Source: Ceratorhiza oryzae-sativae (Eukaryota; Basidiomycota; Agaricomycetes; Cantharellales; Ceratobasidiaceae). From it: a DNA stretch of 64,000 bases. This document shows, in pieces, positions 1 to 64,000 of the stretch. The stretch spans positions 20,170 to 84,169 of the forward strand of contig JARWMV010000067.1 of assembly GCA_030998015.1 (NCBI GenBank), in the 5' to 3' direction. A program made the position numbers and the translations under genes. Each line of letters starts with the position of its first letter. Within the stretch, counting starts at the first letter, position 1. A model generated the notes under the pieces. That model made no database searches. It had not been told where the DNA came from and worked only from the letters and a program-made list of their open reading frames with translations.

Positions 1-1592
1 GGGAAAATGTGAGGAGCAACAATAGATTGAAGAGTGGAAAGTGATCGAGAGGGAATTCGTATAGAATAACCCCGTTTAGAATACCTCCGCGCTCTTTGAT
101 CGCCCGCAGGGCGGCCTAAGCGCGGAGGGTTTGTCACGCGGCCTCGATAACCATACCCCTCGGGTCAACAGCATGTATTTATATATAAATACAATGCTGG
201 TTGACCCTAAGCGGGGGTTATGAAGAGCAGACTCCAAACCAAATTTATCAAGTAATAATTTTCGAAGAAGTTCAACTTCTTCTAGTGTAAAATTATCTAA
301 AACCCCGTGATGGTTAACCAGCACGGACTATAACCCTATCCAACGCTCTCTGATCGCGCCTTTAGGCGCGGCCTAAGCGCTGAGGACTCCTAAATTGGGG
401 GTGATTTGCGCAGGCAAATCTACACCCCCAATTTGGGGTTTTATACCAGGAGTTCGCTTTTTTTTTATTGAATCCACCATCATCGCAAATCCAATAACCG
501 AGGCCCGAGGGTGTCAACAGATTTGCGATATTAGCTGGTACAACTTTAACACCGTCCTGGTAAAAAATATTTAAAAACTCACCAAAACAAGGTAAAGCGT
601 AAGTTCCAAAATATATTGCTTTATAAACTTTCCCCGAGACTTTAAGCTTAAAAGTTTGTGTTTTTGGACCTGAAGGACAAAATTCTCCGCGCGCGTTAGT
701 TGCTGGTGGGACTTGTCCCACCAACCAACGTGAGCAATCGCAACCGTTTGCGATTGCTAGTGCGCGGCATAATATCGATATTTAGCCGCCGGCTGAAAAT
801 GACGAACGGTCGTCATTTTCTACGAGGGAATCTTTAGGATTCCCTCTAACGCCGGCGGGCTCATACAAGTGAAACAGGTAATCTTCATGTACAGCTCCTT
901 GTCTAAACCTTAAACATGGATTTATACCTAACCTTCGGTTGTTAACATTAAGGTCACCAAGTATGAGACCAACCAAGATGTCTTTCAATTGGGGTGAAAG
1001 AGTAAATTGCAATTTTTCAGATTCAGTTAACCGGCGTGACACTAAACCCTCTCGAGGTTTTAATAATGGTAAAGAAGAGAGTACTACACAATATCCAATT
1101 GGCTGAATGTTTTCGACATTAAATGATATTGCAACGGCACATAGTAACGGAATAATTATTACCCGTGCACGCCTGCGAACGCCTTGGCTTGCCAAGGCGG
1201 CCCTGGCGTGCGCGCGGCTCGCCGCGAACGCGGCCTCGTTAACAATGCCCACGGGTCGTTGACCCTCCGCTTTATTACCCCTGCCAAGACGTGCGCTAAA
1301 GCGCAGTTCTCTAGGCAGGGCGGCTGAAATCTTGGGTTACACCTAAGATTTTAGCCGATAGAGCGGGGGCCCGCGCGCGTTAGTTGCTGGTGGGACTTGT
1401 CCCACCAACCAACGTGAGCAATCGCAACCGTTTGCGATTGCTAGTGCGCGGCATAATATCGATATTTAGCCGCCGGCTGAAAATGACGAACGGTCGTCAT
1501 TTTCTACGAGGGAATCTTTAGGATTCCCTCTAACGCCGGCGGAAAATTAACAAAAGAGTTATTCGAAAAAAAGATTTGAATAAATAAAACAT
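1..1592 (-). pseudogene. HEG-h, arm 1 copy (tail cut by window start)
   Basis: Mirror of 39732-41323; same interruptions by A, L, G, B and F. Confidence 0.85.
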
Positions 1593-2044
1593 TTATATGA
1601 AATTAGTATAGTGATAACCTACGGTAAGGCCTTACCACGGATCTATGGGTCAGCGATAGCGATAGATTCGGCTTATTAATTCTTCCAACTCTCTGATCGC
1701 GCCTTTAGGCGCGGCCTAAGCGCTGAGGACTGATAGTTAGACCAAAGTTTGTCAAAATCAACTCGGGGTTAGGTCCCTTACAGGGACCAACCCCGGAGGC
1801 AGGGCTCCCGGAAAAATCCGCAGAGCTCCCACACTCTTAGAGAGCGGGGGTTATATTGATTGATCAAGCGCGCCATAGAATCCCTAACGCGGAGAGTCAA
1901 TCAATGAATTTTAACATTATTCCAATGTTAAAATTTTATAACTACAATCACTTTTATAGCGATTTGTGAACAGAGTGACTCGACCTGCTCCTCGACCGTG
2001 ACCGTCAAAGCCAGCATCTCTAATAAAAAAATATATTCCATAAG

Positions 2045-2516
2045 CTAGAGGGGGTTTATTTTATATTGCATACCGTCGCGTTGGGACCGCCCGAATGGTT
2101 TCCAAAAACACCTCCAAACATGTGCAGCTACGCTGCATTGTTTGGGGGTGGTTTTGGAGGTATAAAGCGCATTTCGGGCGTCCCCAGCGCGGCCGGCGCG
2201 GCCGAGAGTGCATGATTTGGTGTCCCATTGATGGGACGCCAAATCTACATGCATTCTCGAGTGGATGAATGAATATGCGGACCAATCAATGTAACTAGCT
2301 CATTAAATTTAGATTTGGGCATTTATACTCTATATTGGTCTTTAATGCCATTTTTGTGTAAAGCAGTATTTAAATCAAACTTAGTATTAAGTATAGAGGA
2401 TAAATATTTACTATCTTCAAGTGAGAAATTATCAGTACAAAAATAAAAAGCTCCTTTATTAAAAAAGCCATCATCCATAGCGAAATAGGCTAAGCTTAAA
2501 GGTGTTAGCAAATCAA
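2045..2516 (-). pseudogene. HEG-g, arm 1 copy
   Basis: Mirror of 38808-39279, with the same internal TAA. Confidence 0.82.
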
Positions 2517-3913
2517 ACCCCCGCTTAGGGTCAACCAGCATTGTATTTATATATAAATACATGCTGTTGACCCGAGGGGTTTGGTTATCGAGGCCGCGTT
2601 CGCGGCGAGGTATTGCGAGGTACCCTGGAACTTTAAGTTCCAGGGTACCTCGGAATCAGACGCCGCGCGCACGCCAGGGCCGCCTTGGCTTAAGCCAGGG
2701 CGTTCGCAGGCGTGCACGGGTCAACTAAATTAAAGTATAGTGATAGTCTCTAATGCTAAATACCTGTCGCTGCATGTCCGCGCGCGTTAGTTGCTGGTGG
2801 GACTTGTCCCACCAACCAACGTGAGCAATCGCAAACCGTTTGCGATTGCTAGTGCGCGGCATAATATCGATATTTAGCCGCCGGCTGAAAATGACGAACG
2901 GTCGTCATTTTCTACGAGGGAATCTTTATGGGAGGTAGCCTGGACCATGAGACTCATGGTCAAGGCTACCTCATCTGAGGATTCCCTCTAACGCCGGCGG
3001 GAGGCGGACATGTTCCGACTCGTGAGTCGGGAAAACAACTAGGATTTATTACCCTCGAGAATCGATGTAGATTTGCCTTCGCAAATCTTACCCGGGGTCA
3101 ATGGCGACATTGCAATTATTGGGGGTCACCGTCGACGGTGTCAAAAGACTCCGCTTAGTCATTCTTCATTCTCTAGAGAACTCCTACCCTAACCCTGTCG
3201 AAGAGTCCGATTTGGCCAGTGCTGTCATGATCTAAGCGCAAAGCGACGATTCTGTGGGGTAGTTAAACTTCAGTTGGTCTGGGTGCCAACTTAACTGGCA
3301 GAGCCTTGGTCTGAGTACGTTCTAACCCCAGGGCTCACCACAACTAGATTCTCTTTTACAGACCCTGGCACAAGCCCTGGCCTTACTTTTTAGTTCATTA
3401 CAAGGTGGATGAACTAAAAAAGAGGCCGCGTTCGCGGCGAGGTATTGCCTCGGAATCAGACGCCGCGCGCACGCCAGTTCGCAGGCGTGCACGGGTCATA
3501 ATCTTTTCCGTTCAGGACGATGCTTAATGTTATATGTAATCTCGGTATGGCATGCGACCATGCAGGGATGAAAGTTACCCGCATACCCTGTAACCGCCTT
3601 TATGGTAGTATTGAATATGCGGAAATTTCAATTGTTCTCACAATTGCTCGGACTATATCTCATAGACACTTGTCTATTGCTATTTCTAGTCTCTGAGGCG
3701 TATTTAAGCCTGCTTATTTACCTTACCCCGCTAATCGATACCCCTGCCAAGACGTGCGCTAAAGCGCAGTTCTCTAGGCAGGGTGTAGATTTGCCTTCGC
3801 AAATCATCGATTATTGGAGCCCTCCGCGCTTAGGCCGCCCTGCGGGCGATCAAAGAGCGCGGAGGGAAGGTGGTTCAAGCATTTGATAGCATTTAATGTG
3901 GGCCTATTTTCAA

Positions 3914-4117
3914 ACCAACAGCTAAGAAAATATATCCCATTTGAGAAATAGTACTAAACGCAATTATTCGTTTTAAATCATTTTGCAATAGACCAGTAGA
4001 AGCAGCAAAGAAAGCTGTTATGGCTCCTACCCATAAGATTACTAATAGTGCAGTAGAACTATATTCTAATAATGGGGATGATCTAAGAAGTAAGTAACAT
4101 CCAGCTGTAACTAGGGT
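3914..4117 (-). CDS. nad5: nad5 exon 4, arm 1 copy
   Basis: Mirror of 37208-37411, no differences seen. Confidence 0.95.
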
Positions 4118-5221
4118 ACAAATGTTTATATGACCCGTGCACGCCTGCGAACGCCTTGGCTTAAGCCAAGGCGGCCCTGGCGTGCGCGCGGCGTCTGATT
4201 CCGAGGTACCCTGGAACTTAAAGTTCCAGGGTACCTCGCAATACCTCGCCGCGAACGCGGCCTCGATAACCATACCCACGGGTCAACAGCATGTATTTAT
4301 ATATAAATACAATGCTGGTTGACCCTAAGCGGGGGTATGATTTTACCCTCGTCTGTAATCGTTTACAACACGACTTCAGACTCGGGCGCCGACCCTGCAA
4401 GCCAAGGAATTGTTCAACTCCGACTTGGGGTCGAGGCATAAATGGGACTATGTCTTTACCCATATAACAATTTTTATTCATTTTATTACGAATTGTAGAT
4501 TACGGTTATTATGGGTATACTCGTGTAGTCTCTGGGGAACTTAATTATTGGTCGGTTCCTGCTAATTGACCTATATTATATATTGAAATTATGACCCATA
4601 GTCGTTCAAAGACTTAGCGGGTATTCAAATATTAAGGTTATCCTAGCATACAGAGTAATTTTTCATAACCGTTACCGGTTAAGGCTGTTACCCTAAAATT
4701 TGTGGCATGTATTTTTTATAATATTTGTTTACTTTCCCCTACGACCCGACGGATTTTTGACTTGTCCTCTTATCGTGATTTGGGAGGAGCTCTCCGCGCA
4801 TGGGCCGCGCCTCTAATGATCTAAGCGCGGAGGGTTCCCTGTCGCAGCATGTCCGCGCGCGTTAGTTGCTGGTGGGACTTGTCCCACCAACCAACGTGAG
4901 CAATCGCAACCGTTTGCGATTGCTAGTGCGCGGCATAATATCGATATTTAGCCGCCGGCTGAAAATGACGAACGGTCGTCATTTTCTACGAGGGAATCTT
5001 TATGGGAGGTAGCCTGGACCATGAGACTCATGGTCAAGGCTACCTCATCTGAGGATTCCCTCTAACGCCGGCGGACATGCTACTGCGTTACCAAGCCTGT
5101 AAGGCCAACGTATTGGGAGGGCCATTACCCCCCCAAACAATGCAGCATAGCTGCATCAGTTTGGGGGGTCAATGGCGACATTGCAATTATTGGGGGTCTA
5201 CAGGGAAATTAAGAATCTTTT

Positions 5222-7773
5222 TTAATATAGTCTTTCAACCATACCGTCGCGTTGGGACCGCCCGAATGGTTTCGGGCGTCCCCAACGCGGCCGGCGCGGC
5301 CGAGAGTGCATGATTTGGTGTCCCATTGATGGGACGCCAAATCTACATGCATTCTCGAGTGATAGTTTAAACCGTTTTTTGAACTTAGAAGGTGCAGTGA
5401 TTTTACCGTCTCGAACAGGGCCTGTAATATAAGTCTGGGTAAATCCCCGTGAAGGTTTTAAATCCTACCCCTGCCAAGACGTGCGCTAAAGCGCAGTTGC
5501 CCAGGCAGGGGTAATGCCTAATAAATCAGATAGCTCTGCTCGAGCTGCATTTGGATTATTATGGAAACGAACTAAATTGTTGTCTAAAGTATCTATTGAA
5601 ACAACTGGCCAGTTTTTTTTATCCTGAATTTCTAGTAATGTTTCCCGATATGAAGGGTTACCCTGTCGTCAGCGTGTACAAGTACACGCTGCAATCAATT
5701 GTTGGGGGTCTACAGGGTACAACAAAGATATACCGTCAGGATTCCCCCTGCAATAGGTATTTGTTTTTCTTTCCCTGCCTAGGGAACTGCACTAAAGTGC
5801 ACGTCCTGGCAGGGGTAATTAATATAACGGTAGGCTTGCCAAGGGTTTAAGTTATTAGTTGTTGCAAACTCAGAAGCAGAGTGAAATTCCCCATAAAGTG
5901 TTTCTTTATCGTCTAAATATGCATGGATAACACCTTTAGGAATTTCTTCTAAGTTTATTCCGATAACAGGTAATAATTTCTCAAAAGAAGATAAGGGTGC
6001 TGAAGATGAAATTGATTGTCCGCGCGCGTTAGTTGCTGGTGGGACTTGTCCCACCAACCAACGTAAGCAATCGCAACCGTTTGCGATTGCTAGTGCGCGG
6101 AATAATATCGATATTTAGCCGCCGGCTGAAAATGACGAACGGTCGTCATTTTCTACGAGGGAATCTTTCAGATTCCCTCTAACGCCGGCGGATCTACAAT
6201 TCGAAGATGCAAATTAGGTTTCGGACATAAAACAAAGTGATTTACTCTATTTCTATTCCATCTGATGTCATATTCTGTTAAACCTAACGCTGATTTAGCT
6301 TTATTAATAGAATCATACCCCCGCTTAGGGTCAACCAGCATTGTATTTATATATAAATACATGCTGTTGACCCGTGGGTATGGTTATCGAGGCCGCGTTC
6401 GCGGCGAGGTATTGCGAGGTACCCTGGAACTTTAAGTTCCAGGGTACCTCGGAATCAGACGCCGCGCGCACGCCAGGGCCGCCTTGGCTTGATTATTGAC
6501 CTTAAGGTCAATATGAGCCAAGCTTGCTTGGCTTAAGCCAAGGCGTTCGCAGGCGTGCACGGGTCATAAGTATTAAATAAATTTCCTGCTATATCAAAAA
6601 CAGAGATTGGGTGAGAATTGTTCCACCGCGCGCGTTAGTTGCTGGTGGGACTTGTCCCACCAACCAACGTGAGCAATCGCAACCGTTTGCGATTGCTAGT
6701 GCGCGGCATAATATCGATATTTAGCCGCCGGCTGAAAATGACGAACGGTCGTCATTTTCTACGAGGGAATCTTTCAGATTCCCTCTAACGCCGGCGGGGA
6801 TTGTATTCTTCAATGTCAATAGCTGCAAAAGTAAAACTTACTGAAACTTTAGGATCATTAATTTCAGGATTTAGATGTGAAATTATACTCTGTTCTAACA
6901 ATCTAACATGAAACTCTGAAAAGCAGTTCAATATGAACATAGATTTGGCGTCTAATTTTATTTGCGGGTTTAACTCAATAAATAAATTTAGGTAATTTGG
7001 TGTTTTAAATACCGTCGCGTTGGGACCGCCCGAATGGTTTCCAAAAACACCTCCAAACATGTGCAGCTACGCTGCATTGTTTGGGGGTGGTTTTGGAGGT
7101 ATAAAGCGCATTTCGGGCGTCCCCAGCGCGGCCGGCGCGGCCGAGAGTGCATGATTTGGTGTCCCATTGATGGGACGCCAAATCTACATGCATTCTCGAG
7201 TGCAGGTAAGAAATAATAATTATCAAAGCCTCCACCAGTTGTTCGCATTTCGTTTAATAAACCTTGTCTACCGTAAGTCCAAGAATGTATGTAATTATGA
7301 AGTCTACTTACAGGATTAATAGTTGATCCAACATAGCGTCTTAGACTATCTTTATTAATAAAGAAATAAATATAACTACTATCTAGATCATCAAAAGCAA
7401 TTTCAGGAGTTCTTAATTTAGCACAATCTTTTAAATTACTGTTAGACAACATTGAATCTAAAGAAGTTAATGAAGAACATACTCCAGTGTGTTCTTTAGC
7501 TAAAAATCCCATTTTTAACAAGTGTAAACAATGATTGTTAATAAATAATTTAACTAGGCTGTCTTCAGGAAGCCAAGAAAAAAACTGTATTAAAGCGTTT
7601 TGAGCATTTACACCAGCAGATGTAATTCTCCAAGGGATAAACCCTTCACTTTTATCGTGGGGTTTTACAGGCACCAAAGAACAAAGAAAAATCCCATCTA
7701 AGGGAGATTGTAAAACTAATGACGACAAAGGCGCCATTAGAAACAATAACAGAAATAAATAAATTTTTAGCAT
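5222..7773 (-). pseudogene. HEG-f (GIY-YIG), arm 1 copy
   Basis: Mirror of 33554-36105. Confidence 0.83.
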
Positions 7774-9435
7774 TTGTTAATTAATAATAGGATAAGATAC
7801 GGTAACACAATATTGAAGTTATTTATTTTTGGCAAGTAAAGAAAAAGCAAAAATAAATAAGATTTGGTTGTACGTCAGCAAACTCTGTGGCCTTGATAAG
7901 CCCGAGCGCAATCTTCGATCGCGCTAACGAGTTTGAAGATGGGATTCCTGGCACTAAGATCGCCGTACTTAGTACGGGCTTTACTGCCCGCGCTGAGCCA
8001 ACTTTCACAGTCTTATCATTGATCGACCCGTCGGATTTTGGACTCTGATTCCGAGGTAGCCTGGAACCTCTGGGGTCCAGGCTACCTCGCAATACCTTGT
8101 GCTGGTCTGTCTCCATGCAAGATTTATAAAATCTTGCTGGACCTTAGACCAGCATCAGTCCAAATTTCACAATATCAGGGGGCATACGGTGGGATAATTG
8201 ACGGAAGTTGATCTGGTCAGACCAACTGACTTTTTTGCAGACGTCAATTTCCCGTCGGCTAAAATCCTAGGCTATACTGAAAGTATACCTAGGATTTCGG
8301 CAGGGTAAAGTACCAGAATAAATCGTCCTGGCCAGAGATCTCAGGCGAAGCGATTTTGGGTTAAGAAATGTCAACAACATTTCTATACACGGGGTTAATA
8401 GCAATTTATTTTTCGCTAAATTTAGGAATTATGACCCGTGCACGCCTGCGAACGCCTTGGCTTAAGCCAAGCAAGCTTGGCTCATATTGACCTTAAGGTC
8501 AATAATCAAGCCAAGGCGGCCCTGGCGTGCGCGCGGCGTCTGATTCCGAGGTACCCTGGAACTGAAAGTTCCAGGGTACCTCGCAATACCTCGCCGCGAA
8601 CGCGGCCTCGATAACCATACCCACGGGTCAACAGCATGTATTTATATATAAATACAATGCTGGTTGACCCTAAGCGGGGGTATGATTAAATCCAAAAATC
8701 TGCTTCTTTTATGGGAATTTTGGTTCCGTGTCGCAGCATGTCCGCCGGCGTTAGAGGGAATCCTAAAGATTCCCTCGTAGAAAATGACGACCGTTCGTCA
8801 TTTTCAGCCGGCGGCTAAATATCGATATTATGCCGCGCACTAGCAATCGCAAACGGTTGCGATTGCTCACGTTGGTTGGTGGGACAAGTCCCACCAGCAA
8901 CTAACGCGCGCGGACATGCTGCGACAGGGTTCCGGAACGCCCCTCAAATAATAATCCTAGAAGGGGTTAAAGGCGAAAGTTTGTTTCTTTAACCTCTTCT
9001 TAAAAAAAATAGCAATTATTTTTTTCCCTTGTGCCAATAGCCTACGTAAGAAAGCTGAGACACATTTTGTGACCATTGAAGGTCCGTATTAATCCTAAAA
9101 ATATAATTTCAAATGCATAGTATCAAGTATTCCGAACCCTGCCAGAGTGTACGGGCTAAGAAAAAAAACGGTTAATAATAGATGGAGATAAACAACCTCC
9201 TGCACTCAAGTGTATATGAGTCGCAAATTGGGTTAGTGTACGCAGACTCTAGTTTTAAAAGATTCTTAATTTATAAATAATCCCTGCCTGGACCCAATAA
9301 CAGGTGGGAGGGTATCCACCCTTCCCACCTGTGAAAGGGATGGGCAACTGCGTCTTTGCTCGAGTCAGAGGACGAATTTGGGTGGCGCAAGTCTTGGCAT
9401 GGGTAGTAAACAAATATTGTAATTTAATTTTCGGT

Positions 9436-9768
9436 AGCAGCATGCAGTAAAGCAGAAACAGGTGTTGGACCTTCCATTGAATGAGGTAACCAAGTATTAA
9501 GACCTAGTTGGGCTGATTTTCCCATAGCAGCAAATAATAACAATAAACCTATTATTGTTATAGCTGTTTCATTCATATATGGTGCAATACTGAATACTGT
9601 GGCATAATCAATATTTCCAAATAGCCAGAATATAGCAAAGAACCCAATACTTAAGAACATATCACCAACTCTATTCATAGTTAAAGCCAATATAGCAGAC
9701 TTATTAGCTTGAATTCTGGTAAACCAGAAGTTAATCAGTAAGTATGAAGATATACCAATACCCTCCCA
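9436..9768 (-). CDS. nad5: nad5 exon 3, arm 1 copy
   Basis: Mirror of 31559-31891. Confidence 0.95.
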
Positions 9769-10004
9769 CGGGAAATAGCGGACCTTAATCTTTATTCATT
9801 TAATTTTTCTAACATGGAAAAATAAACTCCCCGGTTATCGGCTGAAATCTTAGGTGTAACTCCCAACCACAAGGGGAGGGGTTGCAAGCCTAAGGAGTAT
9901 AGGCTTGTTTCCATGCAAGATTTATAAAATCTTGCTGGACCTGCATTAGGGTCATTGGTTGAGGGACCTGTGCAATGAAATCAAATTTCTTAAGAAGAAG
10001 GTAG

Positions 10005-11449
10005 TTAAATTAACGATGAAGATATTTTATATAGCATTGATGAATGCCCGCCGGCGTTAGAGGGAATCCTCAGATGAGGTAGCCTTGACCATGAGTCTCA
10101 TGGTCCAGGCTACCTCCCATAAAGATTCCCTCGTAGAAAATGACGACCGTTCGTCATTTTCAGCCGGCGGCTAAATATCGATATTATGCCGCGCACTAGC
10201 AATCGCAAACGGTTGCGATTGCTCACGTTGGTTGGTGGGACAAGTCCCACCAGCAACTAACGCGCGCGGGAGTTACAATAGCTCGAAGAATAGGTTGTTG
10301 TTTTACAGGAATACATATTAACCACTGATTTTCCCGTTTTAGTATTAATCGGGTTTCTATATTAAAATTACCCAATAATGATTTTTGTAGAAGTTTAACT
10401 TCTTCCAATGTGTATGACCCGTGCACGCCTGCGAACGCCTTGGCTTAAGCCAAGCAAGCTTGGCTCATATTGACCTTAAGGTCAATAATCAAGCCAAGGC
10501 GGCCCTGGCGTGCGCGCGGCGTCTGATTCCGAGGTACCCTGGAACTGAAAGTTCCAGGGTACCTCGCAATACCTCGCCGCGAACGCGGCCTCGATAACCA
10601 TACCCACGGGTCAACAGCATGTATTTATATATAAATACAATGCTGGTTGACCCTAAGCGGGGGTATGAAATATTTATTTCTAAAAGGTTTTCCCTTAAAC
10701 TTATTTTTATCGTGGTATTTTATAGTTGTATGATGACAGTTTAAAGCTTCAGCAGCTTGCCGTGTAGAATCATATACAATTACAGTATTTTTTTCAATAT
10801 CTGTAACTCCGCTCCCTGGATCTCTAGAGATCCAGGAGGCGGACTTTGTTACCTTTTTCAAAATTTAGTTTAGAAAGATGCGCTCTAATTTTAGATAAAG
10901 ACTCTTCGCTATGCTTAAACCCTAAGGATGAGCAAGCTTTTTTTAAAACCCCAAATTGGGGGTGTAGATTTGCCTGCGCAAATCACCCCCAATTTAGAAG
11001 TCCTCAGCGCTTAGGCCGCGCCTAAAGGCGCGATCAGAGAGTTGGAGGAAGCATGATTAGGAAAAGATTGCTCGAATCTAACTCGACTATTGTGTGATGA
11101 TTTTATTCGTTCAACACGAGAATCTCCGAGAAGAGTCCCTATTAAAATATCACGAAATTGTTGCACGTACGTGCAACAACTTCACCCTTGAGGCGCCTGA
11201 TTCCGAGGTAGCCTGGAACCTCTGGGGTCCAGGCTACCTCGCAATACCTCGGCAGTAATTTCCTTGAGGCGGAGCTGCGATCGTAGGCGGGCACGGGTCA
11301 GTTTGTTCAGAACTGAGATCAACTTCTAATTTTAATGGAGTTGTTTGTCGAGGTTTTCCGTATTCAGAACCTTTTTTCCTGCATAAAGTAAAATAGGACT
11401 AGTTAAAAAAGATTCCTGTAAAGTTTCACCGTTATAATTTTCGAGAAAT
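10005..11449 (-). pseudogene. HEG-e, arm 1 copy
   Basis: Mirror of 29878-31322. Confidence 0.8.
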
Positions 11450-11797
11450 GATAGCAATAGACCCCCAATGCGTTGCAGCGTATTGGGGGGCTATTGCCCC
11501 CCCAAACAATGCAGCGTAGCTGCATTTGTTTGGGGGGTCAATAGTGAAAATATAATATTCTCATCCCGCTTTATAAGACTAAATTTATTTAGTTTAGGAC
11601 TATATCTTTAAATTGATGAAACAATTCGCACCACGTATAGCCTCTGAGGATCCGCTTATTATTTAAAATAGGATATCCTGCTGATTATCCAATCTTTGGA
11701 ATTATTTTGGTTAAATAATTCAAAAGCTCTAAGGAGTTTCCAGCATATAGTGGTGTACATAATGTGTTTAGTAACACATTTAGGCCGGGAGTAATTG

Positions 11798-11890
11798 ACC
11801 GATAAACATAGTTAGGTATGAATCTCCTGCTACTAGAACAAGCATAAAGAAAGTGAATAATGATAAGTATGAAAAGAATCTTTGGTTGTG
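11798..11890 (-). CDS. nad5: nad5 exon 2, arm 1 copy
   Basis: Mirror of 29437-29529. A base near 11674 in the adjacent intron core (GGATATCC for GGATTTCC) differs from the other copies. Confidence 0.94.
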
Positions 11891-11926
11891 CATTGAGGTC
11901 AAATTTATCATACAATTAAATATTTA

Positions 11927-20639: not shown

Positions 20640-20640
20640 T

Positions 20641-37192: not shown

Positions 37193-37207
37193 CATATAAA
37201 CATTTGT

Positions 37208-50443: not shown

Positions 50444-50915
50444 CTAGAGGGGGTTTATTTTATATTGCATACCGTCGCGTTGGGACCGCCCGAATGGTTT
50501 CCAAAAACACCTCCAAACATGTGCAGCTACGCTGCATTGTTTGGGGGTGGTTTTGGAGGTATAAAGCGCATTTCGGGCGTCCCCAGCGCGGCCGGCGCGG
50601 CCGAGAGTGCATGATTTGGTGTCCCATTGATGGGACGCCAAATCTACATGCATTCTCGAGTGGATGAATGAATATGCGGACCAATCAATGTAACTAGCTC
50701 ATTAAATTTAGATTTGGGCATTTATACTCTATATTGGTCTTTAATGCCATTTTTGTGTAAAGCAGTATTTAAATCAAACTTAGTATTAAGTATAGAGGAT
50801 AAATATTTACTATCTTCAAGTGAGAAATTATCAGTACAAAAATAAAAAGCTCCTTTATTAAAAAAGCCATCATCCATAGCGAAATAGGCTAAGCTTAAAG
50901 GTGTTAGCAAATCAA
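50444..50915 (-). pseudogene. HEG-g, arm 3 copy
   Basis: Mirror of 38808-39279, with the same TAA. Confidence 0.82.
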
Positions 50916-52311
50916 ACCCCCGCTTAGGGTCAACCAGCATTGTATTTATATATAAATACATGCTGTTGACCCGAGGGGTTTGGTTATCGAGGCCGCGTTC
51001 GCGGCGAGGTATTGCGAGGTACCCTGGAACTTTAAGTTCCAGGGTACCTCGGAATCAGACGCCGCGCGCACGCCAGGGCCGCCTTGGCTTAAGCCAGGGC
51101 GTTCGCAGGCGTGCACGGGTCAACTAAATTAAAGTATAGTGATAGTCTCTAATGCTAAATACCTGTCGCTGCATGTCCGCGCGCGTTAGTTGCTGGTGGG
51201 ACTTGTCCCACCAACCAACGTGAGCAATCGCAACCGTTTGCGATTGCTAGTGCGCGGCATAATATCGATATTTAGCCGCCGGCTGAAAATGACGAACGGT
51301 CGTCATTTTCTACGAGGGAATCTTTATGGGAGGTAGCCTGGACCATGAGACTCATGGTCAAGGCTACCTCATCTGAGGATTCCCTCTAACGCCGGCGGGA
51401 GGCGGACATGTTCCGACTCGTGAGTCGGGAAAACAACTAGGATTTATTACCCTCGAGAATCGATGTAGATTTGCCTTCGCAAATCTTACCCGGGGTCAAT
51501 GGCGACATTGCAATTATTGGGGGTCACCGTCGACGGTGTCAAAAGACTCCGCTTAGTCATTCTTCATTCTCTAGAGAACTCCTACCCTAACCCTGTCGAA
51601 GAGTCCGATTTGGCCAGTGCTGTCATGATCTAAGCGCAAAGCGACGATTCTGTGGGGTAGTTAAACTTCAGTTGGTCTGGGTGCCAACTTAACTGGCAGA
51701 GCCTTGGTCTGAGTACGTTCTAACCCCAGGGCTCACCACAACTAGATTCTCTTTTACAGACCCTGGCACAAGCCCTGGCCTTACTTTTTAGTTCATTACA
51801 AGGTGGATGAACTAAAAAAGAGGCCGCGTTCGCGGCGAGGTATTGCCTCGGAATCAGACGCCGCGCGCACGCCAGTTCGCAGGCGTGCACGGGTCATAAT
51901 CTTTTCCGTTCAGGACGATGCTTAATGTTATATGTAATCTCGGTATGGCATGCGACCATGCAGGGATGAAAGTTACCCGCATACCCTGTAACCGCCTTTA
52001 TGGTAGTATTGAATATGCGGAAATTTCAATTGTTCTCACAATTGCTCGGACTATATCTCATAGACACTTGTCTATTGCTATTTCTAGTCTCTGAGGCGTA
52101 TTTAAGCCTGCTTATTTACCTTACCCCGCTAATCGATACCCCTGCCAAGACGTGCGCTAAAGCGCAGTTCTCTAGGCAGGGTGTAGATTTGCCTTCGCAA
52201 ATCATCGATTATTGGAGCCCTCCGCGCTTAGGCCGCCCTGCGGGCGATCAAAGAGCGCGGAGGGAAGGTGGTTCAAGCATTTGATAGCATTTAATGTGGG
52301 CCTATTTTCAA

Positions 52312-52515
52312 ACCAACAGCTAAGAAAATATATCCCATTTGAGAAATAGTACTAAACGCAATTATTCGTTTTAAATCATTTTGCAATAGACCAGTAGAAG
52401 CAGCAAAGAAAGCTGTTATGGCTCCTACCCATAAGATTACTAATAGTGCAGTAGAACTATATTCTAATAATGGGGATGATCTAAGAAGTAAGTAACATCC
52501 AGCTGTAACTAGGGT
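52312..52515 (-). CDS. nad5: nad5 exon 4, arm 3 copy
   Basis: Mirror of 37208-37411. Confidence 0.95.
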
Positions 52516-53619
52516 ACAAATGTTTATATGACCCGTGCACGCCTGCGAACGCCTTGGCTTAAGCCAAGGCGGCCCTGGCGTGCGCGCGGCGTCTGATTCC
52601 GAGGTACCCTGGAACTTAAAGTTCCAGGGTACCTCGCAATACCTCGCCGCGAACGCGGCCTCGATAACCATACCCACGGGTCAACAGCATGTATTTATAT
52701 ATAAATACAATGCTGGTTGACCCTAAGCGGGGGTATGATTTTACCCTCGTCTGTAATCGTTTACAACACGACTTCAGACTCGGGCGCCGACCCTGCAAGC
52801 CAAGGAATTGTTCAACTCCGACTTGGGGTCGAGGCATAAATGGGACTATGTCTTTACCCATATAACAATTTTTATTCATTTTATTACGAATTGTAGATTA
52901 CGGTTATTATGGGTATACTCGTGTAGTCTCTGGGGAACTTAATTATTGGTCGGTTCCTGCTAATTGACCTATATTATATATTGAAATTATGACCCATAGT
53001 CGTTCAAAGACTTAGCGGGTATTCAAATATTAAGGTTATCCTAGCATACAGAGTAATTTTTCATAACCGTTACCGGTTAAGGCTGTTACCCTAAAATTTG
53101 TGGCATGTATTTTTTATAATATTTGTTTACTTTCCCCTACGACCCGACGGATTTTTGACTTGTCCTCTTATCGTGATTTGGGAGGAGCTCTCCGCGCATG
53201 GGCCGCGCCTCTAATGATCTAAGCGCGGAGGGTTCCCTGTCGCAGCATGTCCGCGCGCGTTAGTTGCTGGTGGGACTTGTCCCACCAACCAACGTGAGCA
53301 ATCGCAACCGTTTGCGATTGCTAGTGCGCGGCATAATATCGATATTTAGCCGCCGGCTGAAAATGACGAACGGTCGTCATTTTCTACGAGGGAATCTTTA
53401 TGGGAGGTAGCCTGGACCATGAGACTCATGGTCAAGGCTACCTCATCTGAGGATTCCCTCTAACGCCGGCGGACATGCTACTGCGTTACCAAGCCTGTAA
53501 GGCCAACGTATTGGGAGGGCCATTACCCCCCCAAACAATGCAGCATAGCTGCATCAGTTTGGGGGGTCAATGGCGACATTGCAATTATTGGGGGTCTACA
53601 GGGAAATTAAGAATCTTTT

Positions 53620-56171
53620 TTAATATAGTCTTTCAACCATACCGTCGCGTTGGGACCGCCCGAATGGTTTCGGGCGTCCCCAACGCGGCCGGCGCGGCCG
53701 AGAGTGCATGATTTGGTGTCCCATTGATGGGACGCCAAATCTACATGCATTCTCGAGTGATAGTTTAAACCGTTTTTTGAACTTAGAAGGTGCAGTGATT
53801 TTACCGTCTCGAACAGGGCCTGTAATATAAGTCTGGGTAAATCCCCGTGAAGGTTTTAAATCCTACCCCTGCCAAGACGTGCGCTAAAGCGCAGTTGCCC
53901 AGGCAGGGGTAATGCCTAATAAATCAGATAGCTCTGCTCGAGCTGCATTTGGATTATTATGGAAACGAACTAAATTGTTGTCTAAAGTATCTATTGAAAC
54001 AACTGGCCAGTTTTTTTTATCCTGAATTTCTAGTAATGTTTCCCGATATGAAGGGTTACCCTGTCGTCAGCGTGTACAAGTACACGCTGCAATCAATTGT
54101 TGGGGGTCTACAGGGTACAACAAAGATATACCGTCAGGATTCCCCCTGCAATAGGTATTTGTTTTTCTTTCCCTGCCTAGGGAACTGCACTAAAGTGCAC
54201 GTCCTGGCAGGGGTAATTAATATAACGGTAGGCTTGCCAAGGGTTTAAGTTATTAGTTGTTGCAAACTCAGAAGCAGAGTGAAATTCCCCATAAAGTGTT
54301 TCTTTATCGTCTAAATATGCATGGATAACACCTTTAGGAATTTCTTCTAAGTTTATTCCGATAACAGGTAATAATTTCTCAAAAGAAGATAAGGGTGCTG
54401 AAGATGAAATTGATTGTCCGCGCGCGTTAGTTGCTGGTGGGACTTGTCCCACCAACCAACGTAAGCAATCGCAACCGTTTGCGATTGCTAGTGCGCGGAA
54501 TAATATCGATATTTAGCCGCCGGCTGAAAATGACGAACGGTCGTCATTTTCTACGAGGGAATCTTTCAGATTCCCTCTAACGCCGGCGGATCTACAATTC
54601 GAAGATGCAAATTAGGTTTCGGACATAAAACAAAGTGATTTACTCTATTTCTATTCCATCTGATGTCATATTCTGTTAAACCTAACGCTGATTTAGCTTT
54701 ATTAATAGAATCATACCCCCGCTTAGGGTCAACCAGCATTGTATTTATATATAAATACATGCTGTTGACCCGTGGGTATGGTTATCGAGGCCGCGTTCGC
54801 GGCGAGGTATTGCGAGGTACCCTGGAACTTTAAGTTCCAGGGTACCTCGGAATCAGACGCCGCGCGCACGCCAGGGCCGCCTTGGCTTGATTATTGACCT
54901 TAAGGTCAATATGAGCCAAGCTTGCTTGGCTTAAGCCAAGGCGTTCGCAGGCGTGCACGGGTCATAAGTATTAAATAAATTTCCTGCTATATCAAAAACA
55001 GAGATTGGGTGAGAATTGTTCCACCGCGCGCGTTAGTTGCTGGTGGGACTTGTCCCACCAACCAACGTGAGCAATCGCAACCGTTTGCGATTGCTAGTGC
55101 GCGGCATAATATCGATATTTAGCCGCCGGCTGAAAATGACGAACGGTCGTCATTTTCTACGAGGGAATCTTTCAGATTCCCTCTAACGCCGGCGGGGATT
55201 GTATTCTTCAATGTCAATAGCTGCAAAAGTAAAACTTACTGAAACTTTAGGATCATTAATTTCAGGATTTAGATGTGAAATTATACTCTGTTCTAACAAT
55301 CTAACATGAAACTCTGAAAAGCAGTTCAATATGAACATAGATTTGGCGTCTAATTTTATTTGCGGGTTTAACTCAATAAATAAATTTAGGTAATTTGGTG
55401 TTTTAAATACCGTCGCGTTGGGACCGCCCGAATGGTTTCCAAAAACACCTCCAAACATGTGCAGCTACGCTGCATTGTTTGGGGGTGGTTTTGGAGGTAT
55501 AAAGCGCATTTCGGGCGTCCCCAGCGCGGCCGGCGCGGCCGAGAGTGCATGATTTGGTGTCCCATTGATGGGACGCCAAATCTACATGCATTCTCGAGTG
55601 CAGGTAAGAAATAATAATTATCAAAGCCTCCACCAGTTGTTCGCATTTCGTTTAATAAACCTTGTCTACCGTAAGTCCAAGAATGTATGTAATTATGAAG
55701 TCTACTTACAGGATTAATAGTTGATCCAACATAGCGTCTTAGACTATCTTTATTAATAAAGAAATAAATATAACTACTATCTAGATCATCAAAAGCAATT
55801 TCAGGAGTTCTTAATTTAGCACAATCTTTTAAATTACTGTTAGACAACATTGAATCTAAAGAAGTTAATGAAGAACATACTCCAGTGTGTTCTTTAGCTA
55901 AAAATCCCATTTTTAACAAGTGTAAACAATGATTGTTAATAAATAATTTAACTAGGCTGTCTTCAGGAAGCCAAGAAAAAAACTGTATTAAAGCGTTTTG
56001 AGCATTTACACCAGCAGATGTAATTCTCCAAGGGATAAACCCTTCACTTTTATCGTGGGGTTTTACAGGCACCAAAGAACAAAGAAAAATCCCATCTAAG
56101 GGAGATTGTAAAACTAATGACGACAAAGGCGCCATTAGAAACAATAACAGAAATAAATAAATTTTTAGCAT
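53620..56171 (-). pseudogene. HEG-f (GIY-YIG), arm 3 copy
   Basis: Mirror of 33554-36105. Confidence 0.83.
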
Positions 56172-57833
56172 TTGTTAATTAATAATAGGATAAGATACGG
56201 TAACACAATATTGAAGTTATTTATTTTTGGCAAGTAAAGAAAAAGCAAAAATAAATAAGATTTGGTTGTACGTCAGCAAACTCTGTGGCCTTGATAAGCC
56301 CGAGCGCAATCTTCGATCGCGCTAACGAGTTTGAAGATGGGATTCCTGGCACTAAGATCGCCGTACTTAGTACGGGCTTTACTGCCCGCGCTGAGCCAAC
56401 TTTCACAGTCTTATCATTGATCGACCCGTCGGATTTTGGACTCTGATTCCGAGGTAGCCTGGAACCTCTGGGGTCCAGGCTACCTCGCAATACCTTGTGC
56501 TGGTCTGTCTCCATGCAAGATTTATAAAATCTTGCTGGACCTTAGACCAGCATCAGTCCAAATTTCACAATATCAGGGGGCATACGGTGGGATAATTGAC
56601 GGAAGTTGATCTGGTCAGACCAACTGACTTTTTTGCAGACGTCAATTTCCCGTCGGCTAAAATCCTAGGCTATACTGAAAGTATACCTAGGATTTCGGCA
56701 GGGTAAAGTACCAGAATAAATCGTCCTGGCCAGAGATCTCAGGCGAAGCGATTTTGGGTTAAGAAATGTCAACAACATTTCTATACACGGGGTTAATAGC
56801 AATTTATTTTTCGCTAAATTTAGGAATTATGACCCGTGCACGCCTGCGAACGCCTTGGCTTAAGCCAAGCAAGCTTGGCTCATATTGACCTTAAGGTCAA
56901 TAATCAAGCCAAGGCGGCCCTGGCGTGCGCGCGGCGTCTGATTCCGAGGTACCCTGGAACTGAAAGTTCCAGGGTACCTCGCAATACCTCGCCGCGAACG
57001 CGGCCTCGATAACCATACCCACGGGTCAACAGCATGTATTTATATATAAATACAATGCTGGTTGACCCTAAGCGGGGGTATGATTAAATCCAAAAATCTG
57101 CTTCTTTTATGGGAATTTTGGTTCCGTGTCGCAGCATGTCCGCCGGCGTTAGAGGGAATCCTAAAGATTCCCTCGTAGAAAATGACGACCGTTCGTCATT
57201 TTCAGCCGGCGGCTAAATATCGATATTATGCCGCGCACTAGCAATCGCAAACGGTTGCGATTGCTCACGTTGGTTGGTGGGACAAGTCCCACCAGCAACT
57301 AACGCGCGCGGACATGCTGCGACAGGGTTCCGGAACGCCCCTCAAATAATAATCCTAGAAGGGGTTAAAGGCGAAAGTTTGTTTCTTTAACCTCTTCTTA
57401 AAAAAAATAGCAATTATTTTTTTCCCTTGTGCCAATAGCCTACGTAAGAAAGCTGAGACACATTTTGTGACCATTGAAGGTCCGTATTAATCCTAAAAAT
57501 ATAATTTCAAATGCATAGTATCAAGTATTCCGAACCCTGCCAGAGTGTACGGGCTAAGAAAAAAAACGGTTAATAATAGATGGAGATAAACAACCTCCTG
57601 CACTCAAGTGTATATGAGTCGCAAATTGGGTTAGTGTACGCAGACTCTAGTTTTAAAAGATTCTTAATTTATAAATAATCCCTGCCTGGACCCAATAACA
57701 GGTGGGAGGGTATCCACCCTTCCCACCTGTGAAAGGGATGGGCAACTGCGTCTTTGCTCGAGTCAGAGGACGAATTTGGGTGGCGCAAGTCTTGGCATGG
57801 GTAGTAAACAAATATTGTAATTTAATTTTCGGT

Positions 57834-58166
57834 AGCAGCATGCAGTAAAGCAGAAACAGGTGTTGGACCTTCCATTGAATGAGGTAACCAAGTATTAAGA
57901 CCTAGTTGGGCTGATTTTCCCATAGCAGCAAATAATAACAATAAACCTATTATTGTTATAGCTGTTTCATTCATATATGGTGCAATACTGAATACTGTGG
58001 CATAATCAATATTTCCAAATAGCCAGAATATAGCAAAGAACCCAATACTTAAGAACATATCACCAACTCTATTCATAGTTAAAGCCAATATAGCAGACTT
58101 ATTAGCTTGAATTCTGGTAAACCAGAAGTTAATCAGTAAGTATGAAGATATACCAATACCCTCCCA
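57834..58166 (-). CDS. nad5: nad5 exon 3, arm 3 copy
   Basis: Mirror of 31559-31891. Confidence 0.95.
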
Positions 58167-58402
58167 CGGGAAATAGCGGACCTTAATCTTTATTCATTTA
58201 ATTTTTCTAACATGGAAAAATAAACTCCCCGGTTATCGGCTGAAATCTTAGGTGTAACTCCCAACCACAAGGGGAGGGGTTGCAAGCCTAAGGAGTATAG
58301 GCTTGTTTCCATGCAAGATTTATAAAATCTTGCTGGACCTGCATTAGGGTCATTGGTTGAGGGACCTGTGCAATGAAATCAAATTTCTTAAGAAGAAGGT
58401 AG

Positions 58403-59847
58403 TTAAATTAACGATGAAGATATTTTATATAGCATTGATGAATGCCCGCCGGCGTTAGAGGGAATCCTCAGATGAGGTAGCCTTGACCATGAGTCTCATG
58501 GTCCAGGCTACCTCCCATAAAGATTCCCTCGTAGAAAATGACGACCGTTCGTCATTTTCAGCCGGCGGCTAAATATCGATATTATGCCGCGCACTAGCAA
58601 TCGCAAACGGTTGCGATTGCTCACGTTGGTTGGTGGGACAAGTCCCACCAGCAACTAACGCGCGCGGGAGTTACAATAGCTCGAAGAATAGGTTGTTGTT
58701 TTACAGGAATACATATTAACCACTGATTTTCCCGTTTTAGTATTAATCGGGTTTCTATATTAAAATTACCCAATAATGATTTTTGTAGAAGTTTAACTTC
58801 TTCCAATGTGTATGACCCGTGCACGCCTGCGAACGCCTTGGCTTAAGCCAAGCAAGCTTGGCTCATATTGACCTTAAGGTCAATAATCAAGCCAAGGCGG
58901 CCCTGGCGTGCGCGCGGCGTCTGATTCCGAGGTACCCTGGAACTGAAAGTTCCAGGGTACCTCGCAATACCTCGCCGCGAACGCGGCCTCGATAACCATA
59001 CCCACGGGTCAACAGCATGTATTTATATATAAATACAATGCTGGTTGACCCTAAGCGGGGGTATGAAATATTTATTTCTAAAAGGTTTTCCCTTAAACTT
59101 ATTTTTATCGTGGTATTTTATAGTTGTATGATGACAGTTTAAAGCTTCAGCAGCTTGCCGTGTAGAATCATATACAATTACAGTATTTTTTTCAATATCT
59201 GTAACTCCGCTCCCTGGATCTCTAGAGATCCAGGAGGCGGACTTTGTTACCTTTTTCAAAATTTAGTTTAGAAAGATGCGCTCTAATTTTAGATAAAGAC
59301 TCTTCGCTATGCTTAAACCCTAAGGATGAGCAAGCTTTTTTTAAAACCCCAAATTGGGGGTGTAGATTTGCCTGCGCAAATCACCCCCAATTTAGAAGTC
59401 CTCAGCGCTTAGGCCGCGCCTAAAGGCGCGATCAGAGAGTTGGAGGAAGCATGATTAGGAAAAGATTGCTCGAATCTAACTCGACTATTGTGTGATGATT
59501 TTATTCGTTCAACACGAGAATCTCCGAGAAGAGTCCCTATTAAAATATCACGAAATTGTTGCACGTACGTGCAACAACTTCACCCTTGAGGCGCCTGATT
59601 CCGAGGTAGCCTGGAACCTCTGGGGTCCAGGCTACCTCGCAATACCTCGGCAGTAATTTCCTTGAGGCGGAGCTGCGATCGTAGGCGGGCACGGGTCAGT
59701 TTGTTCAGAACTGAGATCAACTTCTAATTTTAATGGAGTTGTTTGTCGAGGTTTTCCGTATTCAGAACCTTTTTTCCTGCATAAAGTAAAATAGGACTAG
59801 TTAAAAAAGATTCCTGTAAAGTTTCACCGTTATAATTTTCGAGAAAT
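58403..59847 (-). pseudogene. HEG-e, arm 3 copy
   Basis: Mirror of 29878-31322. Confidence 0.8.
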
Positions 59848-60195
59848 GATAGCAATAGACCCCCAATGCGTTGCAGCGTATTGGGGGGCTATTGCCCCCC
59901 CAAACAATGCAGCGTAGCTGCATTTGTTTGGGGGGTCAATAGTGAAAATATAATATTCTCATCCCGCTTTATAAGACTAAATTTATTTAGTTTAGGACTA
60001 TATCTTTAAATTGATGAAACAATTCGCACCACGTATAGCCTCTGAGGATCCGCTTATTATTTAAAATAGGATTTCCTGCTGATTATCCAATCTTTGGAAT
60101 TATTTTGGTTAAATAATTCAAAAGCTCTAAGGAGTTTCCAGCATATAGTGGTGTACATAATGTGTTTAGTAACACATTTAGGCCGGGAGTAATTG

Positions 60196-60288
60196 ACCGA
60201 TAAACATAGTTAGGTATGAATCTCCTGCTACTAGAACAAGCATAAAGAAAGTGAATAATGATAAGTATGAAAAGAATCTTTGGTTGTG
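60196..60288 (-). CDS. nad5: nad5 exon 2, arm 3 copy
   Basis: Mirror of 29437-29529. Confidence 0.94.
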
Positions 60289-60324
60289 CATTGAGGTCAA
60301 ATTTATCATACAATTAAATATTTA

Positions 60325-61830
60325 TTATAACTCTCTTCCTGTGTTCATCCCTGATTTTATTTTTATTATGGAATTTAAACCTTCAGTCGTAAGATGGGAT
60401 CCCTCATTCATCAATTTAGCGATTTTACACCAGTCCAAATAATCTAATAATTTTACACCAAGCAAAGGGTTATTTTCAAAAAAAGGTCCGCGCGCGTTAG
60501 TTGCTGGTGGGACTTGTCCCACCAACCAACGTGAGCAATCGCAACCGTTTGCGATTGCTAGTGCGCGGCATAATATCGATATTTAGCCGCCGGCTGAAAA
60601 TGACGAACGGTCGTCATTTTCTACGAGGGAATCTTTAGGATTCCCTCTAACGCCGGCGGGACCCGTGCACGCCTGCGAACGCCTTGGCTTAAGCCAAGCA
60701 AGCTTGGCTCATATTGACCTTAAGGTCAATAATCAAGCCAAGGCGGCCCTGGCGTGCGCGCGGCGTCTGATTCCGAGGTACCCTGGAACTGAAAGTTCCA
60801 GGGTACCTCGCAATACCTCGCCGCGAACGCGGCCTCGATAACCATACCCACGGGTCAACAGCATGTATTTATATATAAATACAATGCTGGTTGACCCTAA
60901 GCGGGGGTATGATATTGGTTATATCTGAAAATTTAGTAATAGTTAAAACCACTGCTGCCTTTCCTGAATATTGTGTTACACTACCTGAACCCAGGTATTT
61001 ACTTAAACACTCCAATAAATTTTTATCTCTATCGTGCTGGGTTACTCTAAATCTTAATTGTATTCTATGCCCAATTGGATTTGATGGTCGTTCATAAATT
61101 CTTACATCAAAACTTACATCAACAGATACAAAGCCTGAAACCCAATTAGAATCAGGAATTTCTTCAGTATTAATAACTGGTCTTTCAACAGGAGCATAGT
61201 CTTTAAACTCAGATTTTAAGGAATCCGATAACCCTAAATTCATTGAGGCCCGCGCGCGTTAGTTGCTGGTGGGACTTGTCCCACCAACCAACGTGAGCAA
61301 TCGCAACCGTTTGCGATTGCTAGTGCGCGGCATAATATCGATATTTAGCCGCCGGCTGAAAATGACGAACGGTCGTCATTTTCTACGAGGGAATCTTTAG
61401 GATTCCCTCTAACGCCGGCGGGACTATTTGTTTCAACCCTTCCATAGTAAGATGAGATTTATTGCTTATTAGTTCTACTACTTCTTTAAACAAAAGAAAA
61501 TCTGCTTTTTTTTGTGTCAATAAAGGGTATTTATCTAAATGATCTATAAGTTGTAACAAATCTTGTTTAGAATCAATTGAATAATTCGCCTTATTTTCAG
61601 AAGGAGTTGAATGAATTGAGCCGATTCCACCCAGAGATTGTTGTAGTTTTAATAATCCGCTCCCTGGATCTCTAGAGATCCAGGAGGCGGGGTAAGTCTT
61701 TTATGTGAAGACCTAATTGAAATTTAGTTTGGATTCTCCATCCTAACTTTCTAGTCTTATTTTTGTCGACTATGATACTGAATGACCCCTCAAGGATACT
61801 ATATGACTTAGGTGGTATTCTTAAAATACC
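60325..61830 (-). pseudogene. HEG-d C-terminal piece, arm 3 copy
   Basis: Mirror of 27895-29400; has the three bases missing from arm 1. Confidence 0.82.
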
Positions 61831-62108
61831 ATCTTACTCAAAAAGGGGAGACTTATAACAGCAACTACCCCCTAAAACTGAAAGCCGTGTAATTCACTAT
61901 GGAATTGTGAGGTACCCTGGACCATTCAGTCCAGGGTACCTCACAATCATGGAATTACGAGTTTGTAGTATACAACATGAAAATATAATTGCACGATACT
62001 TAACAAACATAACGACAATTGACCCCCAATGCCTTACAGCATGTTGGGGGGCAATTGCCCCCCCAAACTATGCAGCGTAGCTGCATATGTTTGGGGGGTC
62101 AATTGTTT

Positions 62109-63132
62109 TTATAAACCTATTTTATATAGCATCATTTTTGGCATAACGTCTTTTAACAACCCTGCCTGGGCAACTGCGCTTTAGCGCACGTCTTGGCAGG
62201 GGTAGGATTGCAAAACCGGCATTGATCTACGTGGAATTACTATTCGGCAACCACTACCTCTGTTAACTTTTCGGCATTTTAAATCCCATTTGGCATTTAA
62301 AACTCCGCTCCCTGGATCTCTAGAGATCCAGGAGGCGGACTAATAAACTTACTTCGTCGACTGTATAGCATTCCGTACAAAGAAAAACTCTTTGTGTTGT
62401 TCGACAAAAGCTACCATCATCGCACAACCAGTAGCTCAATGAGGAAACTGTTAACAACTCGTTTATGTTAGTTGGTATTATTTTTTTCCCATCAAGATAA
62501 AATAGATCGTAAATTGTGTTAAAACACGGCAATGAAGAAGTATTAAATGAAATTTGAGTATAAATTTTGCCTGTCCGGTAATCAGGTTTCTGATCACGAG
62601 ATTTTGGAGCCGATAAACAATAGCTTCTGAATAATTCGTACAAGTGAAAAAGATACTCTTTATTAGCGGAACCTTGTTTAAATCTTAAACGAATACCCTC
62701 CGCGCTCTTTGATCGCCCGCAGGGCGGCCTAAGCGCGGAGGGCTCCACTAATCGATGATTTGCGAAGGCAAATCTACACCCTGCCTAGAGAACTGCGCTT
62801 TAGCGCACGTCTTGGCAGGGGTATCGATTAGCGGGGTTACTATTAATACTTGCTTTATGTGCGTTTAAGTCCCCCAAAATGAGTCCTACTAAAATTTGTT
62901 CTAATTCATTTGAAAGGGAAAAGGATTCTCGTTCAACTTTATTCAATTTTCGCATTTTAACAGGCAATAAAGAAGTAAGTAAAAATTCAATATGGGCGCC
63001 TGGGCCGGATCCGTTAAATGAAAATACTTCAAATTCAGCGGTAGCAATAACCATAATAATTAATAACCAGAAAATATGACAAAACCGTGGTTTGAGTTGA
63101 AGAAAAAAAGATAAAATTGAAAAATAAAACAT
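62109..63132 (-). pseudogene. HEG-c, arm 3 copy
   Basis: Mirror of 26593-27616; the window ends before exon 1 would recur. Confidence 0.84.
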
Positions 63133-64000
63133 TTTTAAAAATTAATATGTTGATAGTCTCTAAATCTAAACACACTAGATGTTCTTCACTAACCGGGACA
63201 TTTAGAATAGACGGTACTTGACCGATTAGGTGGGAAATACCGTTCATGTTCCTAAACTTCAAGGGGCAAGAAAACAATGACCTCCCAATGCGTTACCAAG
63301 CCTGTAAGGCCAACGTATTGGGAGGGCCATTACCCCCCCCAAACAATGCAGCATAGCTGCATCAGTTTGGGGGGTCAACTGGGGTTTATTTTGTCAAAAG
63401 ACTGGGCCCGCCGGCGTTAGAGGGAATCCTAACTTGAGGTAGCCTTGACCATGAGTCCAGGCTACCTCAACATAAAGATTCCCTCGTAGAAAATGACGAC
63501 CGTTCGTCATTTTCAGCCGGCGGCTAAATATCGATATTATGCCGCGCACTAGCAATCGCAAACGGTTGCGATTGCTCACGTTGGTTGGTGGGACAAGTCC
63601 CACCAGCAACTAACGCGCGCGGAGTTCTTCATAGATTAGAAGTTGACCATAATTAAAAGTTGATTACCCTCGCCTATGTACGTTTACAACGTACACTGGC
63701 GTGAGAGTATACTTCGAAAATTGGTCATCCCTAAAGGACCACAACTCCGCCGGTGGTCCCCCGGCGAAAGAATAGGTAAATTGGTTGCCTTTATTCCTTC
63801 CCATTTTGGTTAGGGTTCACCTAGCCCCAAATAAGAGGACAGTTTACCCCAAGTATGACCCGTGCACGCCTGCGAACGCCTTGGCTTAAGCCAAGGCGGC
63901 CCTGGCGTGCGCGCGGCGTCTGATTCCGAGGTACCCTGGAACTGAAAGTTCCAGGGTACCTCGCAATACCTCGCCGCGAACGCGGCCTCGATAACCATAA

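Follow-up and report, generated by a model that had tools for sequence, protein, structure and literature searches.

The 64,000-bp stretch analyzed here (hereafter the window; C67:20170-84169, the last 64,000 bases of the 84,169-bp contig C67 in a 48.8-Mb, 253-contig assembly of Ceratorhiza oryzae-sativae) raises the question of why a segment of mitochondrial DNA (mtDNA) reads as copies in alternating orientation. The original prediction had listed several causes and drawn attention to a maintained subgenome. Our analysis indicates that the window is very probably a chimera, in which fold-back copies seeded by hairpins of the parent sequence, a larger mitochondrial genome, were joined in one contig; this judgment covers formation in the test tube and in the cell jointly. 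Fold-back was among the listed causes and is retained in this hairpin-seeded form, while the maintained subgenome is not.

Self-BLAST of the window (pieces of at least 150 bp, among the matches listed) and axis arithmetic confirmed the predicted mirrored copies about ~20661 and ~44861 with a 48.4-kb period. The components of this arrangement are as follows.

1-41323, no strand: palindrome 1, axis 20661/20662 (i+j=41323), 99.94% identity in self-BLAST
25726-63999, no strand: palindrome 2, axis 44861/44862 (i+j=89723), 99.98% identity in self-BLAST
20662-44862, plus strand: the 24.2-kb unit in nad5 orientation, from contig comparison
25726-41323, plus strand: stretch present three times, with its other copies on the opposite strand at 1-15597 and 48400-63999, from self-BLAST

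Aligned to its own reverse complement, palindrome 1 spans 41,334 alignment columns with 2 mismatches and 14 gap openings, and palindrome 2 spans 38,276 columns with 2 mismatches and 2 gap openings. Mirrors of this length (41 and 38 kb) lie far outside what chance would give. The mirror unit of 24.2 kb gives a period of 48.4 kb, and the direct repeat of 1-15597 at 48400-63999 (99.96%) is a consequence of the two palindromes. Contig C67 itself begins with non-mirror sequence (C67:1-16633), which is followed by the reversed unit. The left arm differs from the middle copy by 11 one-base events in ~20.7 kb, ten of which are insertions or deletions. Compared with the other copies examined, it shows one substitution in a group I intron (window near 11676) and a 3-base deletion at unit position 7582 (window 28243), which may reflect either heteroplasmy or consensus error.

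Other contigs were compared with the unit (pieces of at least 600 bp or at least 500 bp listed), and part of the mitochondrial genome was put in order as a 57.3-kb unrearranged map. In this map, the nad6 side (C199:1-16485) is followed by the unit and then by the reverse complement of C67:1-16633. The axis-1 border occurs at 21 places in the assembly; the C67 mirror accounts for two, and the remaining 19, including those in C152 and C153, enter one common flank. The axis-2 marker occurs at 16 places, six of which represent three mirrors (C67, C109, and C131), while nine enter one common flank and the remaining one lies in contig C205, which begins short of the axis. With each mirror counted once, mirrors make up 1 of 20 cases at axis 1 and 3 of 12 at axis 2. 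Because the border copies continue into common flanks, both axes are interior points of a longer sequence. The course of nad5 follows the same order, as seen in frames read with an assumed genetic code 4, which was also used for the Pfam scan.

24691-25083, plus strand: frame with the N-terminal part of nad5 (Proton_antipo_N, Pfam E 2.3e-15)
~16240-16632, minus strand: its mirror by axis arithmetic, a few bases off owing to indels
31493-31900, plus strand: frame with a middle part of nad5 (Proton_antipo_M 8-123, Pfam E 3.6e-27)
~9423-9830 and ~57823-58230, minus strand: its mirrors by arithmetic
37031-37429, plus strand: frame with a further middle part of nad5 (Proton_antipo_M 122-192, Pfam E 9.9e-19)
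~3894-4292 and ~52294-52692, minus strand: its mirrors by arithmetic
C67:12960-13898, minus strand: C-terminal part of nad5 (NADH5_C, with Proton_antipo_M 228-282, Pfam), beyond axis 2
C199:6175-7311: nad6 (Pfam scan)

The N-terminal and the two middle parts of nad5 lie inside the unit and the C-terminal part past axis 2, and they are colinear only in the unrearranged order; Proton_antipo_M profile positions ~193-227 were not located in the Pfam scan. The window thus holds a partial nad5 because the mirror cuts the gene at axis 2.

These results bear on our first hypothesis, a 24.2-kb linear subgenome maintained with covalently closed hairpin ends or as a palindromic concatemer. Clean alternating mirrors, and an axis-2 mirror in three contigs, would suit such a molecule. 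Against it, border copies run through in 19 of 21 and 9 of 16 cases, axis 2 splits nad5, and axes lie elsewhere in other contigs, one of which, C97, is itself alternating (axes 14261 and 28013). We therefore consider a maintained subgenome improbable. The hypothesis was rejected, as other contigs cross both axes and fold elsewhere, so that the ends are not fixed. The original prediction of a hairpin-ended or palindromic subgenome carrying a partial nad5 falls on the same points: both axes are crossed into common flanks, the 3' end of the gene lies beyond axis 2 (C67:12960-13898, minus strand), and further axes occur elsewhere. Its proposed test, that sequences running through the axes would mark the mirror as an assembly artifact, gave a divided answer at the level of contigs, with run-through at both axes but the axis-2 mirror present also in C109 and C131.

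Altogether, we found nine distinct axes in seven contigs (two each in C67 and C97, and one each in C106, C121, C127, C152, and C153), seven of them outside C67. Three contigs fold close to where they begin: C106 at unit position ~1542, C121 at ~3080, and C127 at ~650. In C97, the second alternating mirror contig, the sequence passes the axis-2 point three times with no fold. The folds of C152 and C153 lie at two neighboring hairpins (unit positions ~5118 and ~5023), and C67, C131, and C205 all stop between these two, at unit position ~5065. Hook-like folds 2-5 kb from the contig start are present in six contigs (C106, C121, C127, C109, C152, and C153).

To characterize the axes, both arms of each mirror were placed on the 57.3-kb map and their overlap was measured. 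The arms overlap by 26-72 bp, with a natural hairpin at nine of nine distinct axes and folding energies of -17 to -53 kcal/mol (RNA parameters). The two hairpins of the window are the following.

20636-20687, no strand: natural imperfect hairpin at axis 1, with stem mismatches, also present in the unrearranged copies
44849-44874, no strand: natural hairpin at axis 2 with an 11-bp stem, belonging in the unrearranged map to a copy of a double-hairpin element

Fold-backs simulated at random points attained a 26-bp overlap in 3.05% of 2000 cases, and since all nine axes fall on natural hairpins, the fold-backs appear to be seeded by them. As judged by eye, the perfect outer part of the axis-1 stem is ~11 bp long, and at axis 1, in C121, and at one C97 axis (C97a) the natural stem mismatches are retained and the mirror starts at the outer stem. 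Retained mismatches and a mirror that runs from the outer stem are what extension of a 3' end, after its pairing inside the hairpin, would be expected to leave. Both a short inverted repeat of the parent at each axis and the unrearranged parent itself, as expected for seeded fold-back, are present in the assembly.

The same comparison bears on reads that simply turn back along the complementary strand, with axes at random fragment ends. Such reads are a known artifact and were enriched for mtDNA in one study (PMC9054137), but nine of nine axes on hairpins against 3.05% in simulation make this source very improbable here. Random fold-back was accordingly disfavored by the simulation, in that the axes are not randomly placed. 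A pure graph error, in which the assembler switched strands at a hairpin with neither a fold-back molecule nor a fold-back read behind it, fits the hairpins at all nine axes and the common unit point at which C67, C131, and C205 end. The perfect stems shared at the axes (~11 bp in the outer part at axis 1, 11 bp at axis 2) are, however, short for usual overlaps, and because of this an assembly-graph error is unlikely.

Many of the hairpins of this mtDNA belong to a dispersed element with a short form of 172 bp, represented by 27 exact copies, and a long form of 222 bp, represented by 17. The 57.3-kb map contains 47 copies in total, which amounts to 15.7% of the map or about one copy per 1.2 kb, and the window contains 45, one of which begins near 21239. 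The predicted fold comprises two composite hairpins with an A+T-rich linker between them, and the 222-bp form carries an extra 50-bp hairpin in its own last loop. Two stem-loop domains, a linker, and dispersed near-identical copies place it in the class of double-hairpin elements. At 132 loci of the map a hairpin has a perfect stem of at least 11 bp, compared with 0, 0, 0, 0, and 2 in five block shuffles; many of these loci lie within element copies, as do four of the nine fold axes. The 47 insertion sites represent 26 distinct contexts; in seven of these the flanks were complementary over at least 3 bases (shuffled mean 1.25; 0 of 5000 shuffles reach seven), and 12 of the 26 had no flank complementarity. 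Because of the complementary flanks, the element would sit at some sites at the tip of another inverted repeat, forming nested hairpins. The element looks mobile. In the assembly, an exact 34-mer of it has 2515 occurrences in the normal form, against three of an exact mirrored 34-mer; the C127 mirror, at another element copy, has one base missing and so escapes the exact pattern. An exact 26-mer of the element had no match in a scan of viral contigs. The double-hairpin element may prove a more durable observation than the mirror. Four reading frames (codes 4 and 16) share a stretch read from the element, ...RALVAGGTCPTNQREQSQPFAIASARHNIDI: C67:760-1284 (plus), C67:14811-15221 (minus), unit 2912-3295 (plus), and C199:3686-4441 (minus). 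Some of these look LAGLIDADG-like by eye.

Hairpin-seeded fold-back could proceed as follows. A single strand ending in or near one of the short imperfect inverted repeats of the parent would fold back and serve as its own template for extension (snap-back), or else a growing strand would change template at the hairpin; either step would yield a long palindrome centered on the hairpin. Two such fold-backs at the ends of the 24.2-kb stretch, presumably chained by the assembler, would give the order flank, reversed unit, unit, reversed unit. Within a cell, resected ends or template switching at forks, as in the fold-back model (PMC3907307) and in origin-dependent inverted-repeat amplification (ODIRA; PMC10766183), would offer routes to the same product.

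The place of the reaction divides this explanation into two branches. To the first, in which single strands with hairpin ends snapped back while the DNA was prepared, end-repaired, or amplified and were later assembled as contigs, we give an even chance. Fold-back reads are a known artifact, with inverted repeats in 0.18% to 7.33% of the reads of ligation libraries (PMC13141652), and they are enriched among yeast mtDNA reads (PMC9054137). After multiple displacement amplification (MDA), often more than one third of mitochondrial reads are palindromic and assembly is impaired (PMC13265396). The multiplicity of mitochondrial sequence in this assembly, with a 25-mer in 50 of 253 contigs, points the same way. 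On the other side, hairpin self-priming was ruled out as a major route in MDA (PMC1855051), and in excerpts of PMC13141652 and PMC9054137 the read artifacts are not tied to genomic hairpins.

The second branch, ODIRA-like template switching in mitochondria, by which inverted triplications or palindromic or hairpin-capped molecules would exist in the culture as a real minority, is possible but should be regarded as tentative. The layout of C67, a flank and then the unit in reversed, direct, and reversed orientation, corresponds to an inverted triplication with junctions at short inverted repeats, as produced by ODIRA in yeast (PMC10766183), and inverted dimers are found as tandem repeats in petites (PMC9054137). 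The hairpin specificity of the axes also fits. Formation in the cell is weakened by the third copy being cut off at the contig end, as a result of which the C67 triplication is unclosed, by the hooks near contig starts, which resemble rare molecules or reads, and by mirrors being in the minority at both axes. Still somewhat more doubtful is the extended proposal that a family of mobile hairpin elements turns densely packed mtDNA into hairpin-capped or palindromic molecules and inverted triplications within the cell, by template switching at forks.

Observed directly were the mirrors, unrearranged sequence running across each axis, the further axes elsewhere, and the hairpins at nine axes. Several points weigh against hairpin-seeded fold-back as the source. 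It was judged on assembled contigs, and those other than C67 were read in part. The axes are a non-random sample, from contigs found through the shared unit, and some of their hairpins belong to one family. With four axes in copies of one element and contigs picked for sharing the unit, the nine axes are thus only partly independent. In C106 and at the other C97 axis (C97b), the switch is located within the stem, and small irregularities occur at the axes of C106, C127, C97b, and C153. Finally, the recurrence of the axis-2 mirror in three contigs could indicate a favored or abundant molecule; since C131 and C67 share their contig end, these mirrors are perhaps dependent.

The original prediction that the segment is mitochondrial is well founded. 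A fungal source agrees with the genome size, the introns, and a probable likeness of nad5 to that of basidiomycetes. In addition to the nad5 exons, it contains the following features.

26941-27402, plus strand: LAGLIDADG_2 frame (Pfam E 9e-34)
29508-29750, plus strand: group I intron core (Rfam RF00028)
11577-11819 and 59975-60217, minus strand: mirrors of the group I intron core (Rfam RF00028)
33554-34339, plus strand: weak GIY-YIG frame (20.6 bits, just under the Pfam cut-off of 22.6)

The three intron copies score 57.5, 51.6, and 57.5 bits with RF00028. ARAGORN with the bacterial code found no transfer RNA, and 24,001 bases of the unit had no megablast match to plasmids and phages.

Elsewhere in the assembly, a 25-mer of the mitochondrial repeat and its flank is carried by 50 of 253 contigs at 90 places (contigs C67 to C228). 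Mitochondrial sequence thus seems to have been assembled many times over, and nuclear copies are possible. C199:4222-5057 and 12913-13747 form an inverted repeat of ~836 bp (99.76%) that flanks ~8 kb and is a possible flip-flop recombination pair. Several other contigs carry the 25-mer at an 8,141-bp spacing, consistent with this repeat. C156:511-9331 contains two copies of the axis-1 border with a common orientation, ~5.9 kb apart, as a direct duplication with no mirror.

Each ingredient of hairpin-seeded fold-back is known, namely palindromes that arise by fold-back at short inverted repeats, inverted dimers of petites, and mobile mitochondrial hairpins. Among the titles listed in a search of the open-licence literature, none concerned hairpin elements seeding palindromes in fungal mtDNA. 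If the palindromes formed in the mitochondrion, they would show hairpin-seeded inversion occurring naturally in an organelle genome and resolved at the sequence level, where over 100 seed hairpins (132 with stems of at least 11 bp) occur in 57 kb. If they formed in the tube, they are a warning that hairpin-rich mtDNA can give believable palindromic contigs of more than 80 kb that can be mistaken for subgenomes. With either origin, the rate of fold-back in relation to hairpin strength is measurable from the reads behind the assembly.

Tanaka and colleagues reportedly described, in 2002, palindromes or inverted duplications seeded by short inverted repeats. Palindromes and inverted duplications arising from such repeats are also the subject of Hermetz et al, 2014 (PMC3907307). 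As in these systems, each long mirror here is centered on a short inverted repeat of the parent; unlike them, the DNA is mitochondrial, the loops are small, seed hairpins are very numerous, and an origin in vivo is only a candidate. Yeast ODIRA proceeds through hairpin-capped or dogbone intermediates to inverted triplications (PMC10766183), and shares with C67 the junctions at short inverted repeats and the alternating orientation. C67, in contrast, is mitochondrial, shows a left flank and three alternating copies, the third ending with the contig, and is likened to ODIRA by its layout. Yeast petites also carry alternating mirrored mtDNA units (PMC9054137), whereas the present assembly has abundant unrearranged sequence and axes that differ between contigs. 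Fold-back artifacts of nanopore, ligation, and MDA sequencing (PMC12870357, PMC13141652, PMC13265396, PMC1855051) resemble the window in their palindromic sequence and in the susceptibility of mtDNA; the axes here, by contrast, lie on genomic hairpins. The Termitomyces mtDNA likewise has large mirrored copies, as an inverted repeat present once per genome with borders confirmed by polymerase chain reaction in two strains (PMC6609731), unlike the many axes found here, which do not form one pair of arms with constant borders.

Mitochondrial double-hairpin elements consist of two stem-loop domains joined by a linker and occur as dispersed near-identical copies; those of Allomyces were reportedly described by Paquin and colleagues in 2000. 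The element of C. oryzae-sativae resembles them by analogy of form. Double-hairpin elements of Allomyces are mentioned in PMC7218506, GC palindromes are known from Heterobasidion mtDNA (PMC10234125), and repetitive hairpin-forming elements from sponge mtDNA (PMC2800124). All of these are short and dispersed, as is the element described here, which differs from them in its own sequence, its length of 172 or 222 bp, its density of one copy per 1.2 kb, and the fold-back axes in some of its copies.

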